A stretch of DNA of 22,486 nucleotides from the IMG/VR virus record IMGVR_UViG_3300008108_000358, positions 1-22,486 of that record, one strand, 5' to 3'. The notes under the pieces are model-generated. The model made no database searches. It saw only the letters and a list, made by a program, of their open reading frames with translations, and was not told the origin of the DNA. Positions 762 through 22,462 of the stretch are shown one piece after another. The DNA is from a virus. Numbering within the stretch: position 1 is the first letter of the stretch; each line of letters begins with the position of its first letter. The position numbers and the translations under genes are program-made.

Positions 762-2789
762 TTATTTTTTCTTAATTACTACATGTTTCATCCAACCATG
801 ACGACATTGAAACTCGATTGTCCCGTCATTGTTCCAAAAACCGCCGGCGCGTTTGAATACTGAATATCCTAAACGTTCGGAAAGTTTTTGAATATCTTCA
901 CGGCTGAACATCCTGGTTTTGCTTAACCCTACCATTTTAACGCAAAACGGACGCGATGTCGGGATCAACTCCGGACCGGCAACATCGGACCTTTTTTCGT
1001 ATGTGTACATGACTTTGATTTCGGGCAATGTTTGCGCCGGTAATCTTTCCGTGATTTTACGAATTGTAATTCCGCCTTTGACGATTGGTTCGATTACTTT
1101 GCTTTCGGTAAGTTTTTCGACGATCGCATTCACAACATCCTTTTCATATTTCAACGCTTCGGCAATTTGATCATTGGATAAATCCGGTTGTTTTTTTAAC
1201 AACTCCATGACCTTCGATTCCCTTTCGGTGAATTCGGTAACGGCCGCGAATGACATTTTGAAATCGTCGTCCTGGCCGATATAAACTTCGGATTTTATGA
1301 TGTTATAGGTTTCGCGATCTTCGCCATATTCCGCGAACATGTCCGCGATGAACTCGTCGGAATCATCGCTGAATTGCTGATCGTTCGTCATTGGGTTTTC
1401 ATCGACGCCCAAATATTGATTGATTTGTTCGTTTGTAAATCCATACGCTGACAATTGGATCGACGCTTGTCCCTTTGTTAACTTGCCCTGGCTGAATAAA
1501 CGAACGATCCTTAAAAGGTTTTGTTGTTGGCGTCCGGACAATTTCACCAATGTTTCATTTCCCAATTGTTCCGGCTGACTTGCCACCGCCACCGGTGCAA
1601 TGCCATATTTCGCCGGATCAATGCCGAATTTTTCCAATATCCATTCCTTCGGCAAAAGTTCCTTAAACTGCACCGGATCAAGTTCCATTCCCACGGGTTC
1701 AACATCCTTCAATTTATATTCGGCGTCGATATTTGCAACGCTTGAAAAATACCCGACTATTTCCTCAATTTGCTTTTGCTTATGGGTGACATAGGTATTT
1801 TTAAAAATTTCATATGATGTTTTCAATTCGGTTGCGTTCCCTAATTTACCCTCTTGCTGAATACCGAAAAGTAAAGGATGCGTGATATTATGACCGCTGA
1901 ATATGTTATTCGTGATCAAATTGTCGATCGTTGTGAAATCCTCTTTTGTCAAATCCGATTGACCCAAATCATCGATTGTGGGTTTTTTCAACGGATCGTT
2001 GTTGAACGCGATCAAAAGTTTTTTCCCTTCGGCACCGGTCGCGGCATTTTCTAACCTGGCCGTGATCTTTCGTTTTTTATCCTCTTCGGGTTCGCCGTTG
2101 TAAAAATTGATAAACTTCGACGCGCTGAAACCGGTTTTAGCATTTGTCAATGTGTGACGTGAAACCTCGATGTCGGATTCAACCCAATTGCACGCGGCAA
2201 CCCATGAAGGCAACGCATACGGATTTTTCCCGCATCGGTATTCCTTAAAATAAAATATCGATGTTGTTGTGCATCCAGGATGAAACGCCGGATATTCGGC
2301 TTCCGGTTGTTCCCATGTATTCTGCCATTTTTTACGATAGTAAAAACAATCGTTCGCCTCATTGGTCCGGATTCTATCATATGACATATGATAAATGTTG
2401 TAACCGCCGGCAAGTTTTGGGATAACCTGGAAATAACAACCGCCGTAATTCTCAATATCCAAACATGCGATTTTCATCAATTGGTCCCATGATTGTTTCT
2501 CATTGGCCTTTTGCAAAAATATCTTTCCGGCTTCGGAATCGGTTGTCAACCCATTGCCCAAAATATAAACGCACTTTCCGTTGATGATCGCGTTGTGTTT
2601 CGCTGACTTATTGTAAAGCCAAAGTAAATACCCCGGATAATCGTTCCGGTCCCCGAATGGAACATAACTCAATCCCCGTTTTTTTTCCATAATGGGAATC
2701 CTGGAATCCGCGAATTCCATTGATCCAATTTCCAAAATGTCCCCGTCGGTTTTATCCGGCGTAACCTTTATATGTCGTTTCGGGTTCAT
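762..2789 (-). CDS. Portal protein with C-terminal winged-helix and Cys/His minor-head-like extension
   Basis: A 675-aa protein. Residues about 40-400 read as a PBSX/SPP1-like portal: an early 'LSYVPFGDRNDYPGYLLWL' segment, a mixed core, and a helical section near 320-350 (ELKTSYEIFKNTYVTHKQKQ) typical of portal stems. Residues about 522-572 look like a winged helix (RESKVMELLKKQPDLSNDQI and onward). Residues about 595-672 hold Cys615 in 'SRPFC' and Cys662/His664 in 'CRHGW', a spacing reminiscent of SPP1 gp7/Mu F-type minor head proteins. The ATG at 2787-2789 follows a clear AAGGAAGG ribosome-binding site and overlaps the preceding gene by 38 bp. At 675 aa it is longer than most portals because of the fused C-terminus. 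The portal call is firm; the role of the extension is inferred. Confidence 0.8.
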   Translation of the reverse strand: MNPKRHIKVTPDKTDGDILEIGSMEFADSRIPIMEKKRGLSYVPFGDRNDYPGYLLWLYNKSAKHNAIINGKCVYILGNGLTTDSEAGKIFLQKANEKQSWDQLMKIACLDIENYGGCYFQVIPKLAGGYNIYHMSYDRIRTNEANDCFYYRKKWQNTWEQPEAEYPAFHPGCTTTSIFYFKEYRCGKNPYALPSWVAACNWVESDIEVSRHTLTNAKTGFSASKFINFYNGEPEEDKKRKITARLENAATGAEGKKLLIAFNNDPLKKPTIDDLGQSDLTKEDFTTIDNLITNNIFSGHNITHPLLFGIQQEGKLGNATELKTSYEIFKNTYVTHKQKQIEEIVGYFSSVANIDAEYKLKDVEPVGMELDPVQFKELLPKEWILEKFGIDPAKYGIAPVAVASQPEQLGNETLVKLSGRQQQNLLRIVRLFSQGKLTKGQASIQLSAYGFTNEQINQYLGVDENPMTNDQQFSDDSDEFIADMFAEYGEDRETYNIIKSEVYIGQDDDFKMSFAAVTEFTERESKVMELLKKQPDLSNDQIAEALKYEKDVVNAIVEKLTESKVIEPIVKGGITIRKITERLPAQTLPEIKVMYTYEKRSDVAGPELIPTSRPFCVKMVGLSKTRMFSREDIQKLSERLGYSVFKRAGGFWNNDGTIEFQCRHGWMKHVVIKKK

Positions 2790-3132
2790 ATCCTTCCTTT
2801 GTTATATTGGCCGCCGGATTCAATTTCATTTTGCCGCATTCAACCAAATTCAACCCCGTTGGATCAAGATTGACGGCTGAACTCTGTTCATAAACTTCAT
2901 ATGAATATTGTCCGGCTTGCGCGGTTGCGAATAAAGTAATTGTGTTAAATGTGTATATGTTGGCGCGTTCCGGGAATTCACTTGTATCGGACGCGGAATT
3001 TACAATGATCTTATATTGAACCTTTGTTGATACGTTTTCGAATATGAACAAATAATACGGATTCGTAATTGTCGTTGATTCATTCAACGTTACAATTGTT
3101 TCCGATTGTTGCCCAATAGTGTAAACGATCAT
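2752..3132 (-). CDS. Conserved phage structural protein of unknown function
   Basis: A 126-aa beta-rich protein from ATG 3130-3132 (MIVYTIGQ...). A TTG five codons upstream is in frame but less likely. The pattern, an N-terminal strand pair then 'TTITNPYYLFIFEN', and later 'GQYSYEVYEQSS' followed by 'LVECGKM', recurs in small proteins of Bacteroidota phage structural operons. It is the first gene after a strong terminator, and its 3' end overlaps the portal start by 38 bp, so it is probably translated together with the portal. It may be a head-tail or decoration protein, but nothing in the sequence decides this. Confidence 0.7.
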   Translation of the reverse strand: MIVYTIGQQSETIVTLNESTTITNPYYLFIFENVSTKVQYKIIVNSASDTSEFPERANIYTFNTITLFATAQAGQYSYEVYEQSSAVNLDPTGLNLVECGKMKLNPAANITKEGYEPETTYKGYAG

Positions 3133-12908: not shown

Positions 12909-14102
12909 TCAGTAATCGTCATCTGCGAATGAATATTCCCCGATCGCCTCGAATTGCGACAACTTATTCAATCCGACGTACCGGACGGCGTCAATGGCGT
13001 GATTTAATACATCTTCGGGCGCATTCAATGTTTTTCCCTCTCGATCCTTCGCCCACCGGTATTGCCTCAATTCTTTGATAAAATTAAGGGAATTTTTGGT
13101 GACGCGCAATTCGTAACCTTGCAAACGGTCAATTGATGCTTTGATCGAATCCGGACCCTTTCGGGCGGCCTCGACATAAAACCCGGCGTTCATCAATTCG
13201 GCAATGGATTTCGGTTCCGCCGAATCCGCAACAATGCACCGGGTTGAATTAATCCCGAATTGTTTAAGGTAGTTCACAATTTCGGAATTCGTTAATTTGG
13301 TTTGATACAATAGTTCGTTAATGTAGATCATGCCATTGAACCTGTAAACCTCGACCAACGCCGTTGGATCATTCGTAAATCCCCAATCCAGGCCGTACGC
13401 GATGAACTCTGCTTCGGTCGGTATCTTTTCACATTGCTGCCAATTTTGGAAAACGACGCCGTCCAAGGAACCGATTTCACCCAACCCATAAACCCGAAAC
13501 CAATTTCCCCAAAATGCGGACCCAGCGTCGGCCTTTTCCTTTGCCTTCAAAATAAAGTTTAACGCCGATTCCGGACATGCTTCATTGTCCTGGTAATTGA
13601 TGATAATGAAATCGACGTCCTCGTCGTTGATCAATTCGTCATGAAACCAAAACGGGTTAGTCGGGTTCCAATCCAGGAAAACGCCTTTTTTGGTCCGGGA
13701 TGCCAATTCGGTATAAGAATGAAACGACATGTTGTTGCACTCATTCATATACAACCAATCGCGACGAGCACCCCTTAACTTTGCGTCATTGTCCGCGCTG
13801 AAAAATTCGATTTGTGATCCGTTCGCAAATGTATATTTGAAATCGGTTGCGTTCCAACGATCATCGAACCAACGTCCCGTTTCGAACATTATTTTTTTAA
13901 AATCCTTCATTGCGCCGCGTTTCAAATGTGGTATTGATTCGGCGACGATGGATATTTCGCTGAATGGATTTTTCGCGGCGATGTCGATCAATATCGGGAT
14001 AATCGCATAAGTTTTGCCGGCCGATGTTCCGCCTTGGATACCACGGACGAAACGGCGCATTTTCAAAATCTTATTGATCGCCGTTGTTCGAATGAATGCC
14101 AT
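12909..14102 (-). CDS. terL: Terminase large subunit
   Basis: A 397-aa DNA-packaging motor. The N-terminal ATPase shows Walker A 'GGTSAGKT' (24-31), a Walker B-like 'WLYMNE' ending in Glu121, and 'FLDWNPTNPFW' at 142-152. The C-terminal RNase H-like nuclease has three expected acidic residues: Asp239 in 'GLDWGF', Asp293 in 'VADSAEPKS' and Asp371 in 'HAIDAVRY'. Length is normal for PBSX-type large terminases. It lies 4 bp after the small subunit, but its base composition differs sharply from that gene. It ends before a strong terminator. All catalytic motifs are present, so it should be active. Confidence 0.95.
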   Translation of the reverse strand: MAFIRTTAINKILKMRRFVRGIQGGTSAGKTYAIIPILIDIAAKNPFSEISIVAESIPHLKRGAMKDFKKIMFETGRWFDDRWNATDFKYTFANGSQIEFFSADNDAKLRGARRDWLYMNECNNMSFHSYTELASRTKKGVFLDWNPTNPFWFHDELINDEDVDFIIINYQDNEACPESALNFILKAKEKADAGSAFWGNWFRVYGLGEIGSLDGVVFQNWQQCEKIPTEAEFIAYGLDWGFTNDPTALVEVYRFNGMIYINELLYQTKLTNSEIVNYLKQFGINSTRCIVADSAEPKSIAELMNAGFYVEAARKGPDSIKASIDRLQGYELRVTKNSLNFIKELRQYRWAKDREGKTLNAPEDVLNHAIDAVRYVGLNKLSQFEAIGEYSFADDDY

Positions 14103-14106
14103 TCAA

Positions 14107-14520
14107 TTATTTTTCTGGGAACAAAGGTTGTTCGACTTTCAAATCTGTTTGCGTTTTCTCAACCAAGTTGTTCAAACGTTGCGTAATTGAAGGATTATAA
14201 ATACCAGTCATTCCACCAGATATTTGATCCTCTCTTATACATTGCTTTATGCGTGAACAGATAGGTACATATTCCTCATATCGTCCATCTCTGTTTGAAA
14301 AATAGTCTTTAAGTTGACTTATTTTATCCCAACAGAAAATTTCAAAACCTTCCATTGTTAATGGTCGTTCTTTTTTTCTTTCTACTTGAGTACCCATTCC
14401 TCCTACCCAATCAACTACTACAAATGGTTTACTTTTAGCATCTTTACAATATGCCTCAAATAGTTCCCAAAGCACTGATGGTGATTCAATATATTTTTTT
14501 AAACCTTTTTTTGTAGGCAT
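14107..14520 (-). CDS. terS: Terminase small subunit (gp3-like)
   Basis: A 137-aa protein beginning 'MPTKKGLKKYIESPSVLWEL', with 'FEIFCWDKISQLKDYFSNRD' and 'EEYVPICSRIKQCIREDQI', then 'GGMTGIYNPSITQRLNNLVEK'. This series matches the P22 gp3-type packaging protein family, which recognises the phage genome and hands it to the large subunit. Location immediately before the large terminase supports it. Most of the gene is AT-rich like the replication region, but the last 100 bp or so look like the GC-richer structural region, so the C-terminus may be of different origin. Confidence 0.85.
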   Translation of the reverse strand: MPTKKGLKKYIESPSVLWELFEAYCKDAKSKPFVVVDWVGGMGTQVERKKERPLTMEGFEIFCWDKISQLKDYFSNRDGRYEEYVPICSRIKQCIREDQISGGMTGIYNPSITQRLNNLVEKTQTDLKVEQPLFPEK

Positions 14521-14521
14521 T

Positions 14522-14722
14522 TTATTTTTTTGTTTTTACTTTTTGATTTTCAAAAACAAATTTAACTAATTCATTTACGCATGATTGACATCCTTTTACT
14601 GTCCATTGTAATTCTGAATTAATTTCATTAGCCAATAAAACCAATTGATCTAATTCTGCATCTGATGGATGTACATCAATTCCTAATTGTACTCTGTCAT
14701 AGAGGTATTGCAAATTTGTCAT
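14522..14722 (-). CDS. Small hypothetical protein
   Basis: A 66-aa frame, ATG at 14720-14722, overlapping the stop of the sigma-like gene in an ATGA arrangement and ending 1 bp before the small terminase. It is helical, with 'MTNLQYLYDRVQLGIDVHPS' at the start, one 'CQSC' pair at about 45-48 and a basic C-terminus (QKVKTKK). I do not recognise the family. Tight spacing suggests co-translation with the terminase genes. Confidence 0.72.
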   Translation of the reverse strand: MTNLQYLYDRVQLGIDVHPSDAELDQLVLLANEINSELQWTVKGCQSCVNELVKFVFENQKVKTKK

Positions 14723-15189
14723 AAGTCTATATGTTTTTTAATGTTTTTTCTAGCTTTTTGTACTGTGTGATAAATTGAAATATGCGGGATTCCTGTTACT
14801 TCAGCCACTTTTCTATAGGTACCAAGTTCTGCATACAATTCTAGTATTTTAGCTTCATACCAGTGAATCTTTTGTAAAGGTACAACAATTATTTCATTTT
14901 TTTGTTCATCAATTATTTCAGGAAGTTCTTGTAATAGTATTTCTTTTGTCTCTGATGATCTAAAAGATCCTCTTTCCCATCTTACCATATTGTATATCAT
15001 TTTTGCTATATAGGCCATCAGTTTGTTTCTGGCATAAAGATCAAGAATAATTTCTTTATCTTTTAGCAGCAACTCAGTGAATGTACATTGAAGCACATCT
15101 TGCTGAATAGTTACTGGTCTTATTTTAGAAACACATTCTTTTAATTCATCTGATCTATAAATTTTCTCTAATATTTCTTTTGTTTCCAC
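14719..15189 (-). CDS. Sigma-70 region 4 / ArpU-like HTH regulator, GTG start
   Basis: A 156-aa protein. The C-terminal part (about 105-156, containing 'WYEAKILELYAELGTYRKVA' and 'GIPHISIYHTVQKARKNIKK') is a helix-turn-helix like sigma region 4 or ArpU-type late regulators. Residues about 45-75 (LYARNKLMAYIAKMIYNMV) recall a sigma core region. GTG at 15187-15189 is the start: an in-frame TGA lies a few codons upstream and the next Met comes too late. It sits between the replication genes and the packaging genes, the usual place for a switch to late transcription. Direct RNA polymerase binding is unproven. Confidence 0.68.
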   Translation of the reverse strand: METKEILEKIYRSDELKECVSKIRPVTIQQDVLQCTFTELLLKDKEIILDLYARNKLMAYIAKMIYNMVRWERGSFRSSETKEILLQELPEIIDEQKNEIIVVPLQKIHWYEAKILELYAELGTYRKVAEVTGIPHISIYHTVQKARKNIKKHIDL

Positions 15190-15213
15190 AATTAAAATTA
15201 ATCATTTTTTCAT

Positions 15214-15242
15214 ACGCGTGTTCGCCTTAGCGAACAACGCGT
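15214..15242. repeat. Strong GC hairpin upstream of the sigma-like gene
   Basis: ACGCGT-GTTCGC, a CTTA loop, then GCGAAC-A-ACGCGT forms a 12-bp stem with one bulged A. ACGCGT is itself palindromic. It lies 25-53 bp before the GTG start of the sigma-like gene. In the minus sense it is followed by ATGAAAAAATG, without a T-run, so it is not a classic terminator. It could be an operator, an origin hairpin or an mRNA leader structure. Confidence 0.7.
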
Positions 15243-15260
15243 GTATATATTTTATTTATA

Positions 15261-15446
15261 GTTATAACACATGCACACCATGTGTTATAACAGTGTTATA
15301 ACAGTGTTATTAATTAATTGATTTATAATATTTTGCATATTTGCGTTTATTTTAATATTTATGTTTTTGTTATTTTTTATTAAAAAATCATTTTGTTATA
15401 ACAGAAAAAAACATTTGTTATAACAGTGTTATAACAGTGTTATAAA
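15261..15446. repeat. Phased TGTTATAACA iteron region, candidate origin or operator
   Basis: TTATAAC cores start at 15262, 15285, 15296, 15396, 15418 and 15429, with a variant TTATAAA at 15440. A degenerate copy is near 15307. Neighbouring copies are 11 or 22-23 bp apart, so they lie on one face of the helix. Most are part of the palindrome TGTTATAACA. The first two form a perfect 13-bp inverted repeat (15261-15273 with 15279-15291, 5-nt loop). An 85-bp AT-rich stretch separates two clusters. The region holds no credible gene and lies just behind the primase-helicase; the last repeat overlaps its stop. Iterons plus AT-rich DNA fit a replication origin; repressor binding or partition are alternatives. 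Confidence 0.8.
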
Positions 15447-17206
15447 GTGTATTCATATTGCCTAGTATAAGTATTATAATTAAAGTTTATAAAACCGATT
15501 TTTCCAAGCCAAGAATATCTTACCTTTTGAATGTATATTGTTACCAGATTATTTGAAAAATCCCTGTAAACAGTTATTCCATTGTCTGTTTTATTAAAAA
15601 AATGTGCTGATCCTGATATTGAATATAATGTAGGTACTTCATATTTACCTGTTGTTTTATCTTTTTGCAATTTAGTTGGATGTGCAATTATGATAATATG
15701 AATGCCTAATTTAAGGGCTGTTTTTTTTATTTTAGTTAGACATTCACTTACGTACTGCGTCTCACTGAATCCATTTGGTATATTATGTTCTATATAATTC
15801 CAAGGATCTATAAGCAATCCTTTTATTCCTTTCCTTAGTACAAGTTCGGTTGTTTTAGATAATATACCATCTATTGTTATATCAGTGTCAGTAGTATTTA
15901 TAAAATTAAAATTCTCCTTTAGGTGACCAATGGTGATGTCTAGTTCAAATTCTGATACTCTATTAAGTGGATCAATTCTGTAATCAAATGCGCGCCCAGA
16001 TAACTTCTCGATTATTTTAGTGGCATGAAATACTGGTGGAGTATTTTCAAATGAACATATTGCCCATTTCCAATCATGATTTATAGAAGTTTTAGACATA
16101 ATATAATCAGTGAACTCACTTTTACCAGATCCAGGAATACCGGTAACTATTGTTATTTGACCTTCCATTAACCTGACATGATCATCTAAACCTGGGATTC
16201 CTATTTCTATTCCTTTAGGATAACCATTTTTATAGTAATCCCATATCTCTTGTTCTATCTCATCGTTTGATACAATACCTTCTATCGGAAACTGTTTTGC
16301 GTTTTCTACTAGATTACGTAAAGTTTCTTTTCCGTACTTATTTAATATATCATTTGAATCTTTACAATCGATCGGGTACTCTATTTGATAGCAAATCTCC
16401 TTACCTAATCTCCTAGACAATTCCTCTTTCAATAATTTGCCGACATTGTCATTATCTGTAGCAATAACTATTTTCTTTTTATTTACAAAATACTCATAAC
16501 AGTTGTCCAAATATTTTAATTGCATATTCCCTTTTGGACTTGTTCCATTAGGGACAGATATACAATTGTAAATACCAGCCTCGTACATACTTAGACAATC
16601 TATTTCGCCTTCAACTATTACAACTTCTTCTTTATCTTCTATGGCATCAATATTATAAAATATTAATTCAGCGTCTTTTGCTAGTTTAAAATCTTTACCA
16701 GGTCCTCTAAATTTTATATTTACTAATTCATTTTTTTTAAAATAATTAAAACAAACTACAGGAACTTCCATTTTTGATTTTGGCATCCATTCTGTTCCTT
16801 GTGTTATTTGAAATCTTAATAAAGTATTATTTGAAATACCTCTTTTTTCAAACCAGTTAATATAAGCGGGATTTATTTTTTCAATCCTATGGATTGGTTT
16901 TACATAATCTTTACTTATTATATCAAGTTCAAAATTGTATTTATTTGCAACTTTTTTTACAGCTTCATGAAAACTGCAATTCTCTATTTCTATAATAAAT
17001 GAAAATACATCTCCAGACTTGCCACATCCAAAACATTTATAGAAATCATTTGATCTTCTAATTTTAAATGAAGGCGTTTTTTCATTATGAAAAGGACAAC
17101 ACGCAATAAACTCAGAACCTGATTTTTTTAATTTAATATAATCATGTACTACTTCAGTAAGTTTAGCTATTTCCTTTAATTTAGTTATTGATTCATGACT
17201 TATCAT
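15440..17206 (-). CDS. Bifunctional DNA primase-helicase (T7 gp4-like)
   Basis: A 588-aa replication enzyme, close to the length of T7 gp4. The N-terminus has a CHC2-like zinc finger with Cys37, His40, Cys58 and Cys61. The Toprim domain shows 'VEGEID' (198-203) and 'ATDNDN' (249-254). The helicase domain follows with Walker A 'GIPGSGKS' (356-363), Walker B 'GLLIDPWN' with Asp467, 'IIAHPTK' with His509, and 'ISGSAHFFNKTDNGI' (530-544). It should unwind DNA and make primers at the fork. It overlaps the DUF4373 gene by 4 bp (ATGA). All key residues are present. No DNA polymerase gene lies in this window. Confidence 0.95.
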   Translation of the reverse strand: MISHESITKLKEIAKLTEVVHDYIKLKKSGSEFIACCPFHNEKTPSFKIRRSNDFYKCFGCGKSGDVFSFIIEIENCSFHEAVKKVANKYNFELDIISKDYVKPIHRIEKINPAYINWFEKRGISNNTLLRFQITQGTEWMPKSKMEVPVVCFNYFKKNELVNIKFRGPGKDFKLAKDAELIFYNIDAIEDKEEVVIVEGEIDCLSMYEAGIYNCISVPNGTSPKGNMQLKYLDNCYEYFVNKKKIVIATDNDNVGKLLKEELSRRLGKEICYQIEYPIDCKDSNDILNKYGKETLRNLVENAKQFPIEGIVSNDEIEQEIWDYYKNGYPKGIEIGIPGLDDHVRLMEGQITIVTGIPGSGKSEFTDYIMSKTSINHDWKWAICSFENTPPVFHATKIIEKLSGRAFDYRIDPLNRVSEFELDITIGHLKENFNFINTTDTDITIDGILSKTTELVLRKGIKGLLIDPWNYIEHNIPNGFSETQYVSECLTKIKKTALKLGIHIIIIAHPTKLQKDKTTGKYEVPTLYSISGSAHFFNKTDNGITVYRDFSNNLVTIYIQKVRYSWLGKIGFINFNYNTYTRQYEYTL

Positions 17207-17586
17207 AATATCATTTTATTTTGTTGATTTGGTTTAGACCATCTTTTTTTCATTCCCTCTTTTCCAGATTGAGATTTTTTTTCTTTTAAAGCTTTATACT
17301 GTTCCATACTTCTTATCAATCTTTCAGAATAAAAAACTTCATTATCAACAACAAATAAATCATAATCATTGATCACAGATTCCACTTTTTCAGTACTTAT
17401 ATTTAAAGAATAAGATATATCTTCAATGCAAGTTTTAGGTAATTTATGATCTTGTGATTCTCTTAATATCTCAATGATGCACCAATATATTCCATAACCT
17501 TCTAAACCAAGATTTCTTCTTAGTTTTAATATTTTTACATCATTCCTGGCGTTACTATCATGAGAAAAATAAAATGATTCTTTCAT
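17203..17586 (-). CDS. DUF4373-like replication-associated protein
   Basis: A 127-aa protein from ATG 17584-17586 (MKESFYFSHDSNARND...). A TTG-initiated extension to 17652 is possible but would run through a strongly self-complementary stretch. 'FSHDSNARNDVKILKLRRNL', 'GLEGYGIYWCIIEIL' and a winged-helix-like middle match DUF4373/Lin1244-type N-terminal domains found in phage replication initiators. The C-terminus ends soon after 'GKEGMKKRWSKPNQQ', so the second domain often present is absent. ATGA overlap with the primase-helicase suggests it helps load or recruit that enzyme, as an inference. Confidence 0.78.
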   Translation of the reverse strand: MKESFYFSHDSNARNDVKILKLRRNLGLEGYGIYWCIIEILRESQDHKLPKTCIEDISYSLNISTEKVESVINDYDLFVVDNEVFYSERLIRSMEQYKALKEKKSQSGKEGMKKRWSKPNQQNKMIL

Positions 17587-22277: not shown

Positions 22278-22433
22278 TTATAATTTAGGAATTATTACCT
22301 CTTTTATTGCAGCAGTTAAACTACCATATTTTTTTAATATGGCTTTTTTTTGCTTATCATTTATATAAGCACTAACCATTTTTACTTTTTGGTCATCAGG
22401 TATTTTTTTTCTACCAGGTTTTTGTTTTTCCAT
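22278..22433 (-). CDS. Small basic protein, possible DNA-binding regulator
   Basis: A 51-aa frame from ATG 22431-22433 (MEKQKPGRKKIPDDQKVKMV...) to TAA at 22278-22280, ending 16 bp before the ATPase gene. The N-terminal 'KPGRKKIPDDQK' is an AT-hook-like basic arm; 'SAYINDKQKKAILKKYGSLT' and 'AAIKEVIIPKL' could form two helices, as in small ribbon-helix-helix-like proteins. A candidate promoter lies just before it, so it would be the first gene of the early transcript. It may regulate the operon; evidence is composition and position only. Confidence 0.72.
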   Translation of the reverse strand: MEKQKPGRKKIPDDQKVKMVSAYINDKQKKAILKKYGSLTAAIKEVIIPKL

Positions 22434-22454
22434 TCTTTTTGTTTTTGATTTCTG

Positions 22455-22462
22455 CAAATATA
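22455..22462 (-). promoter_or_regulatory. Candidate Bacteroidota -7 promoter box for the early operon
   Basis: On the minus strand TATATTTG matches the TAnnTTTG -7 box of the Bacteroidota primary sigma factor, 21 bp before the first ATG. An A/T-only stretch lies upstream. The matching TTG element near -33 is not visible and the window ends there. The A-rich leader AAAACAAAAAG before the ATG fits a Bacteroidota ribosome-binding region. Confidence 0.5.

Follow-up and report, generated by a model that had tools for sequence, protein, structure and literature searches.

The repeat array at positions 15260 to 15447 of the window, the 22,486-nucleotide stretch of viral DNA analyzed here (positions 1 to 22,486 of IMG/VR record IMGVR_UViG_3300008108_000358), is very probably the site at which a Bacteroidota-type phage begins to replicate its DNA. 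Comparison with related loci makes it highly likely that this array is the phage origin and is bound by the DUF4373 protein, which would recruit the adjacent primase-helicase. The first-pass annotation had proposed an origin with DUF4373 as a candidate ligand, and this proposal is supported by 11-bp arrays that travel with DUF4373 genes across several phyla, sometimes with the same motif. The features of the window are listed in Table 1.

Table 1. Features of the window that bear on the putative origin
Feature	Position	Strand	Basis or remark
Sigma-like protein, 156 aa, first gene past the array	14719..15189	-	Weak PHROG 1740 match, E 0.069
Hairpin between the array and the next gene	15212..15242	-	z -4.3
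Short A-rich tract TATAAATAAAATATATAC	15243..15260	-	After the last iteron in the gene direction
Iteron cluster B	15260..15312	.	Palindromes 15260-15269, 15283-15292, 15294-15303; partial site 15305-15312
AT-rich spacer between clusters A and B	15313..15393	.	Candidate unwinding DNA
Iteron cluster A	15394..15447	.	Palindromes 15394-15403, 15416-15425, 15427-15436; degenerate copy 15438-15447 over the stop codon
Primase-helicase (CHC2 zinc ribbon, Toprim, DnaB-like C-terminal domain)	15440..17206	-	Domain search; PHROG 239
DUF4373/Lin1244_N protein, 127 aa, proposed initiator	17203..17586	-	PF14297, E 1.1e-13
Protein with a 51-aa core, ribbon-helix-helix-like by eye	22278..22457	-	Rival ligand

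When the sequence was rescanned, TTATAAC cores were found at 15262, 15285, 15296, 15396, 15418, and 15429, with a variant at 15440, giving core-to-core spacings of 23, 11, 100, 22, 11, and 11 bp. The gap after the primase-helicase gene contains five exact TGTTATAACA palindromes and one more with a single mismatch. The degenerate copy at 15440 overlaps the primase-helicase stop codon, the lattice also holds a partial site, TGTTATTA, at 15305, and a perfect 13-bp inverted repeat lies at 15261 to 15273 and 15279 to 15291. The first-pass annotation had reported these cores, which rescan and simulation bore out, and its palindromic copies, its 13-bp inverted repeat, and its spacing of 11 or 22 to 23 bp within the clusters (measured as 23, 11, 22, 11, and 11 bp) were likewise recovered. 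It had also placed the two clusters about eight helical turns apart, but the nearest sites are separated by 100 bp, or about nine 11-bp steps. The spacer that it had described as resembling AT-only DNA is indeed very AT rich but is not AT only. Positions 15251 to 15750 are the GC minimum of the window.

In 20,000 runs of a first-order Markov simulation of the 251-bp gap, the mean number of TGTTATAACA copies was 0.0076 and the maximum was 2, versus the five exact copies observed, and the 11-bp periodicity score of the gap was matched by none of 3,000 simulations. With two mismatches permitted, the whole window gave 20 matches versus 17.4 expected. Because such looser matches show no excess, what is unusual is confined to the strict motif and to the way its copies cluster. 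The lack of excess, and the fact that the repeats lie in the most AT-rich region of the window, would fit functionless low-complexity DNA. However, that reading is made extremely improbable by the number of exact 10-mers and by a register that is conserved although the helicase protein of the relatives differs by up to 19%.

Relatives of the primase-helicase were numerous among viral contigs, and those with about 80 to 100% helicase identity carry the same repeats straight after the helicase stop codon. In these close relatives, the repeats lie near 4, 15, 26, 37, and 137 to 181 nt past the stop codon, the last range being the counterpart of cluster B. Array position and register are kept in L006 to L015 and L078, where the 11-bp lattice has acquired some sites and dropped others. 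The lattice positions used vary by phage while the sites remain near multiples of 11 bp, the gap between clusters is 110, 111, or 122 bp (likewise close to multiples of 11), and L009 and L010 retain one cluster only. In the more distant L016 to L028, a related but altered motif (GGCTTAAGCCA/GGCTATAACAT in L018) occupies the same place. The first-pass annotation had held that relatives with the flanking genes but without the repeats would speak against an origin; close relatives instead keep the lattice, even with the sigma-like gene replaced.

The same loci bear on whether the array is an operator for the sigma-like gene and the downstream late genes, bound by a phage regulator. An operator would suit an array that lies where early genes give way to late ones, 70 to 250 bp ahead of the next gene, and in several relatives the hairpin is followed by a Bacteroidota-like promoter box, TAnnTTTG. 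However, in L016 to L028 the downstream sigma-like gene has been swapped for other small genes or terminase genes and the array stays, and in other phages equivalent arrays lie in the middle of the DUF4373 coding sequence, at a distance from gene starts. An operator is thus an unlikely explanation of the array.

The DUF4373 protein of the window scores 52.2 bits against PF14297 (gathering cutoff, 25), which places it in the family, and it matches PHROG 2562, annotated "replication initiation protein" (E 2e-19). Its gene lies directly upstream of the primase-helicase gene, the start of which overlaps its end. DUF4373 loci were fetched from bacterial genomes (80 loci) and viral contigs (80 loci), and the stretch with the strongest 11-bp periodicity was located within about ±6 kb of the DUF4373 gene. 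Among genome loci, this stretch fell within the DUF4373 gene itself in 55 of 76, where 5.8 were expected; among viral loci, it did so in 58 of 74, where 5.4 were expected. At the same loci, control lags of 8, 12, and 18 were at or near chance; a 5-bp A-rich tract also lifted lags of 10, 15, and 20, and lag 22 was elevated as the double of 11. The DUF4373 genes with such arrays span Bacteroidota, Bacillota, Campylobacterota, phages, and prophages, and in EF62phi the in-gene array is the top peak in 6.4 kb.

Within these genes, the arrays lie at about codons 110 to 135, just past the winged-helix domain, with a second cluster near codon 47. In the mean of 86 dereplicated loci, 11-bp periodicity was maximal 330 to 450 nt from the domain start and showed a second peak at 90 to 210 nt, the 5-bp tract was maximal at 390 to 480 nt, just beyond the iterons, and lags of 8 and 14 were flat. 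Dyad symmetry was significant (P < 0.05) in 22 of 67 arrays, so palindromy is common and not universal. Among 92 long DUF4373 genes, 24 did not contain the top peak of their locus, and 11 fell outside the top three 100-bp bins. The array scan found no array in the remote members from Flavobacterium phage 1/32 and Vibrio phage 1.132. In L031, L032, L042, and others, the second iteron cluster lies at about codons 40 to 60, within the conserved N-terminal domain, and protein and DNA-site constraints therefore overlap there.

To separate DNA from protein, synonymous codons were shuffled within each gene (60 shuffles per gene), which preserved both the protein and the codon usage. The lag-11 score exceeded that of all 60 shuffles in 44 of 101 dereplicated DUF4373 genes (1.7 expected), versus 1 of 100 control open reading frames from the same loci; lags of 8, 13, and 16 were at chance level. 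Because 11 is not a multiple of three, a repeated protein cannot simply cause this period, and since the in-gene periodicity exceeds that of the shuffles, selection acts on the DNA and not on the protein.

The motif is also shared. Several in-gene arrays bear the window's own TGTTATAACA motif, the consensus of the in-gene array in an Alistipes prophage (L098) is TGTTATAACAA, and other clades use motifs besides TTATAAC, such as GCGAACGC and GGCTTAAG. The window core GTTATAAC occurred 9 times within long DUF4373 genes and 16 times outside, an enrichment given that the genes make up 6.7% of the loci and the remainder 93%, and a looser tandem pattern, ATAACANNGNTATNNCA, occurred 14 times in DUF4373 genes and never outside at the same loci; these counts derive from a small number of genes and, within a gene, are not independent.

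A different ligand would be the protein with the 51-aa core, acting as a repressor or in partition at cooperative 11-bp-spaced sites. Ribbon-helix-helix dimers are known for short operators about one turn apart, and the gene for this protein co-occurs with the TTATAAC lattice in L006 to L009, L011, L012, L014, L015, L180, L022, and L028. However, L016, L018, and L020 have related arrays at this location but yielded no homologue, and, barring a chance-level match in L096, none was found in the genome loci with TTATAAC arrays inside DUF4373. These distributions make the 51-aa protein a very unlikely ligand. The protein had no Pfam or PHROG match. Its gene heads the early operon and is kept in the window's clade.

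With DUF4373 as the favored ligand, the position of the array in the window can be compared with the length of the protein. Lin1244_N members elsewhere have a longer tail beyond the N-terminal domain, and in an alignment the window's protein lacks the linker that carries the iterons in other members. When DUF4373 genes of ≤135 aa without the linker were classed as a short form, the peak lay within the gene in 0 of 6 short genes versus 68 of 92 long genes (Fisher P, 6e-4). Two changes, one in the window's clade and one in L027, are needed to explain the short form in a tree of 109 DUF4373 domains. Near the helicase end, two of the six short-form loci gave no clean result in the automatic scan: in L027, repeats (GGTTATAACAA...) and then a purine tract are seen by eye after the helicase gene and the automatic score is low, and in L028 the top automatic stretch there is a CAA run and repeats are visible by eye. 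The short tract TATAAATAAAATATATAC is the counterpart of a longer AAAGN tract behind in-gene iterons and is weak in the window. Because the automated count of A-rich tracts misplaced the last iteron in extragenic loci (L017, L020, and L023), the sequences themselves were used instead. In the window's clade, then, DUF4373 lacks the iteron-encoding linker, and the array follows the next gene. If the array is an origin, the window suggests that an origin inside an initiator gene can become detached from that gene. This case would separate selection on the DNA sites from selection on the protein linker.

In the mechanism that we propose, DUF4373 winged-helix dimers would bind palindromes of about 10 bp that are spaced one helical turn (11 bp) apart and would stack along one face of the DNA, straining the neighboring AT-rich DNA and opening it. 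DUF4373 would then use its short C-terminal tail, which ends in MIL, MVL, or VVL in many members of the alignment, to recruit the primase-helicase encoded by the overlapping next gene and hand it the strand. In most relatives, the same kind of array sits in the DUF4373 gene and doubles as code for a variable linker; in this clade, the linker is absent and the array is placed just beyond the next gene. A helicase or helicase loader (a DnaC-like loader or DnaB-like helicase) adjoins DUF4373 in EF62phi and in Porphyromonas and Vibrio phages.

In an AlphaFold2 model (pLDDT, 85), DUF4373 forms a compact domain of helices and a wing, and this domain matches winged-helix proteins. In VIA-align, many winged helices scored at Z 5 to 6.7, which does not discriminate among them; the RepA_N-type entries 4pql, 4pt7, and 5kbj scored at Z 5.4 to 5.8 over 82 to 83 residues, tied with unrelated winged helices. 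A Foldseek search with the model gave no significant match (best E, 0.09), and a sequence search against solved structures gave nothing meaningful (best E, 0.12). Fold comparison of this model thus neither supports nor excludes kinship with RepA_N.

The best reading by analogy is that DUF4373 would recruit its helicase as λ O and pSK41 Rep do, both of which have in-gene origins. The λ ori lies within the O gene (PMC7466680). The initiator gene adjoins a helicase-loading gene in λ as well (O and P), and extra iterons add residues to O, as they would in the in-gene DUF4373 arrays. The spacer adjoins the iterons of the window as the AT-rich tract does in a λ O-like origin, but λ differs in that here the pitch is 11 bp, the sites are palindromes of about 10 bp, and the array lies beyond the primase-helicase gene rather than within the initiator gene. 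RepA_N initiators (pSK41 Rep and PLE RepA) have a winged-helix N-terminal domain. The pSK41 ori is central in rep, and the protein stretch that it encodes is dispensable (PMC5703833), which parallels the linker loss and relocation in the window's clade. In PLE, a RepA_N ori can be intergenic as well (PMC7145576). DUF4373 differs from these proteins in that the Pfam scan of the window's protein gave PF14297 only, with no match to PF06970 (RepA_N).

The closest likeness in family is to the Lin1244/Lin1753-like (DUF4373) replication protein of EF62phi, which belongs to the same Pfam family and has an 11-bp array in its gene; the window's clade differs in its truncated linker and extragenic array. 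DUF4373-type genes are carried by EF62phi, a plasmid-like phage, and by a 45.8-kb circular Paenibacillus plasmid. In the literature searched, which included few subscription journals, no description of DUF4373, Lin1244, or EF62phi iterons was found. From these sequence comparisons, we consider it likely that PF14297 proteins form a widespread family of initiators, used by phages and plasmid-like elements in several phyla, with sites of about 10 bp, often palindromic, at an 11-bp pitch and followed by an A-rich pentamer tract. Such a unit would be a portable origin that normally lies in the linker and, on at least two occasions, has ended up outside the gene with loss of the linker. If a recognizable 11-bp array lies in or beside DUF4373 genes, both origin and initiator would be predictable for many phages in several phyla, and the origins of many unstudied phages could be read straight from sequence.

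Other observations concern the surroundings of the array and of its relatives. GC content is about 43% in the structural genes but drops to about 28% in the replication genes, and the changeover lies near the array (14000 to 15500). GC skew showed no sign change or inflection at the array within the window, where little signal is expected because all genes run in one direction. The hairpin past the array keeps its position, with a differing stem sequence, in L009, L011, L012, L021, and L022, which suggests compensatory change; it is probably a terminator of the early operon. In L043, L051, L067, and L068, in which DUF4373 was not detected, 11-bp arrays (CAACAGATAAC and AAAGCACTTG) lie directly upstream of the helicase gene, a hint that the same pitch may serve other initiator families. 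In the Paenibacillus plasmid NZ_CP054611 (L254, positions 2229 to 3069), the DUF4373 frame ends within the A-rich tract and a second, overlapping open reading frame follows, an arrangement that is possibly a split initiator or a frameshift.
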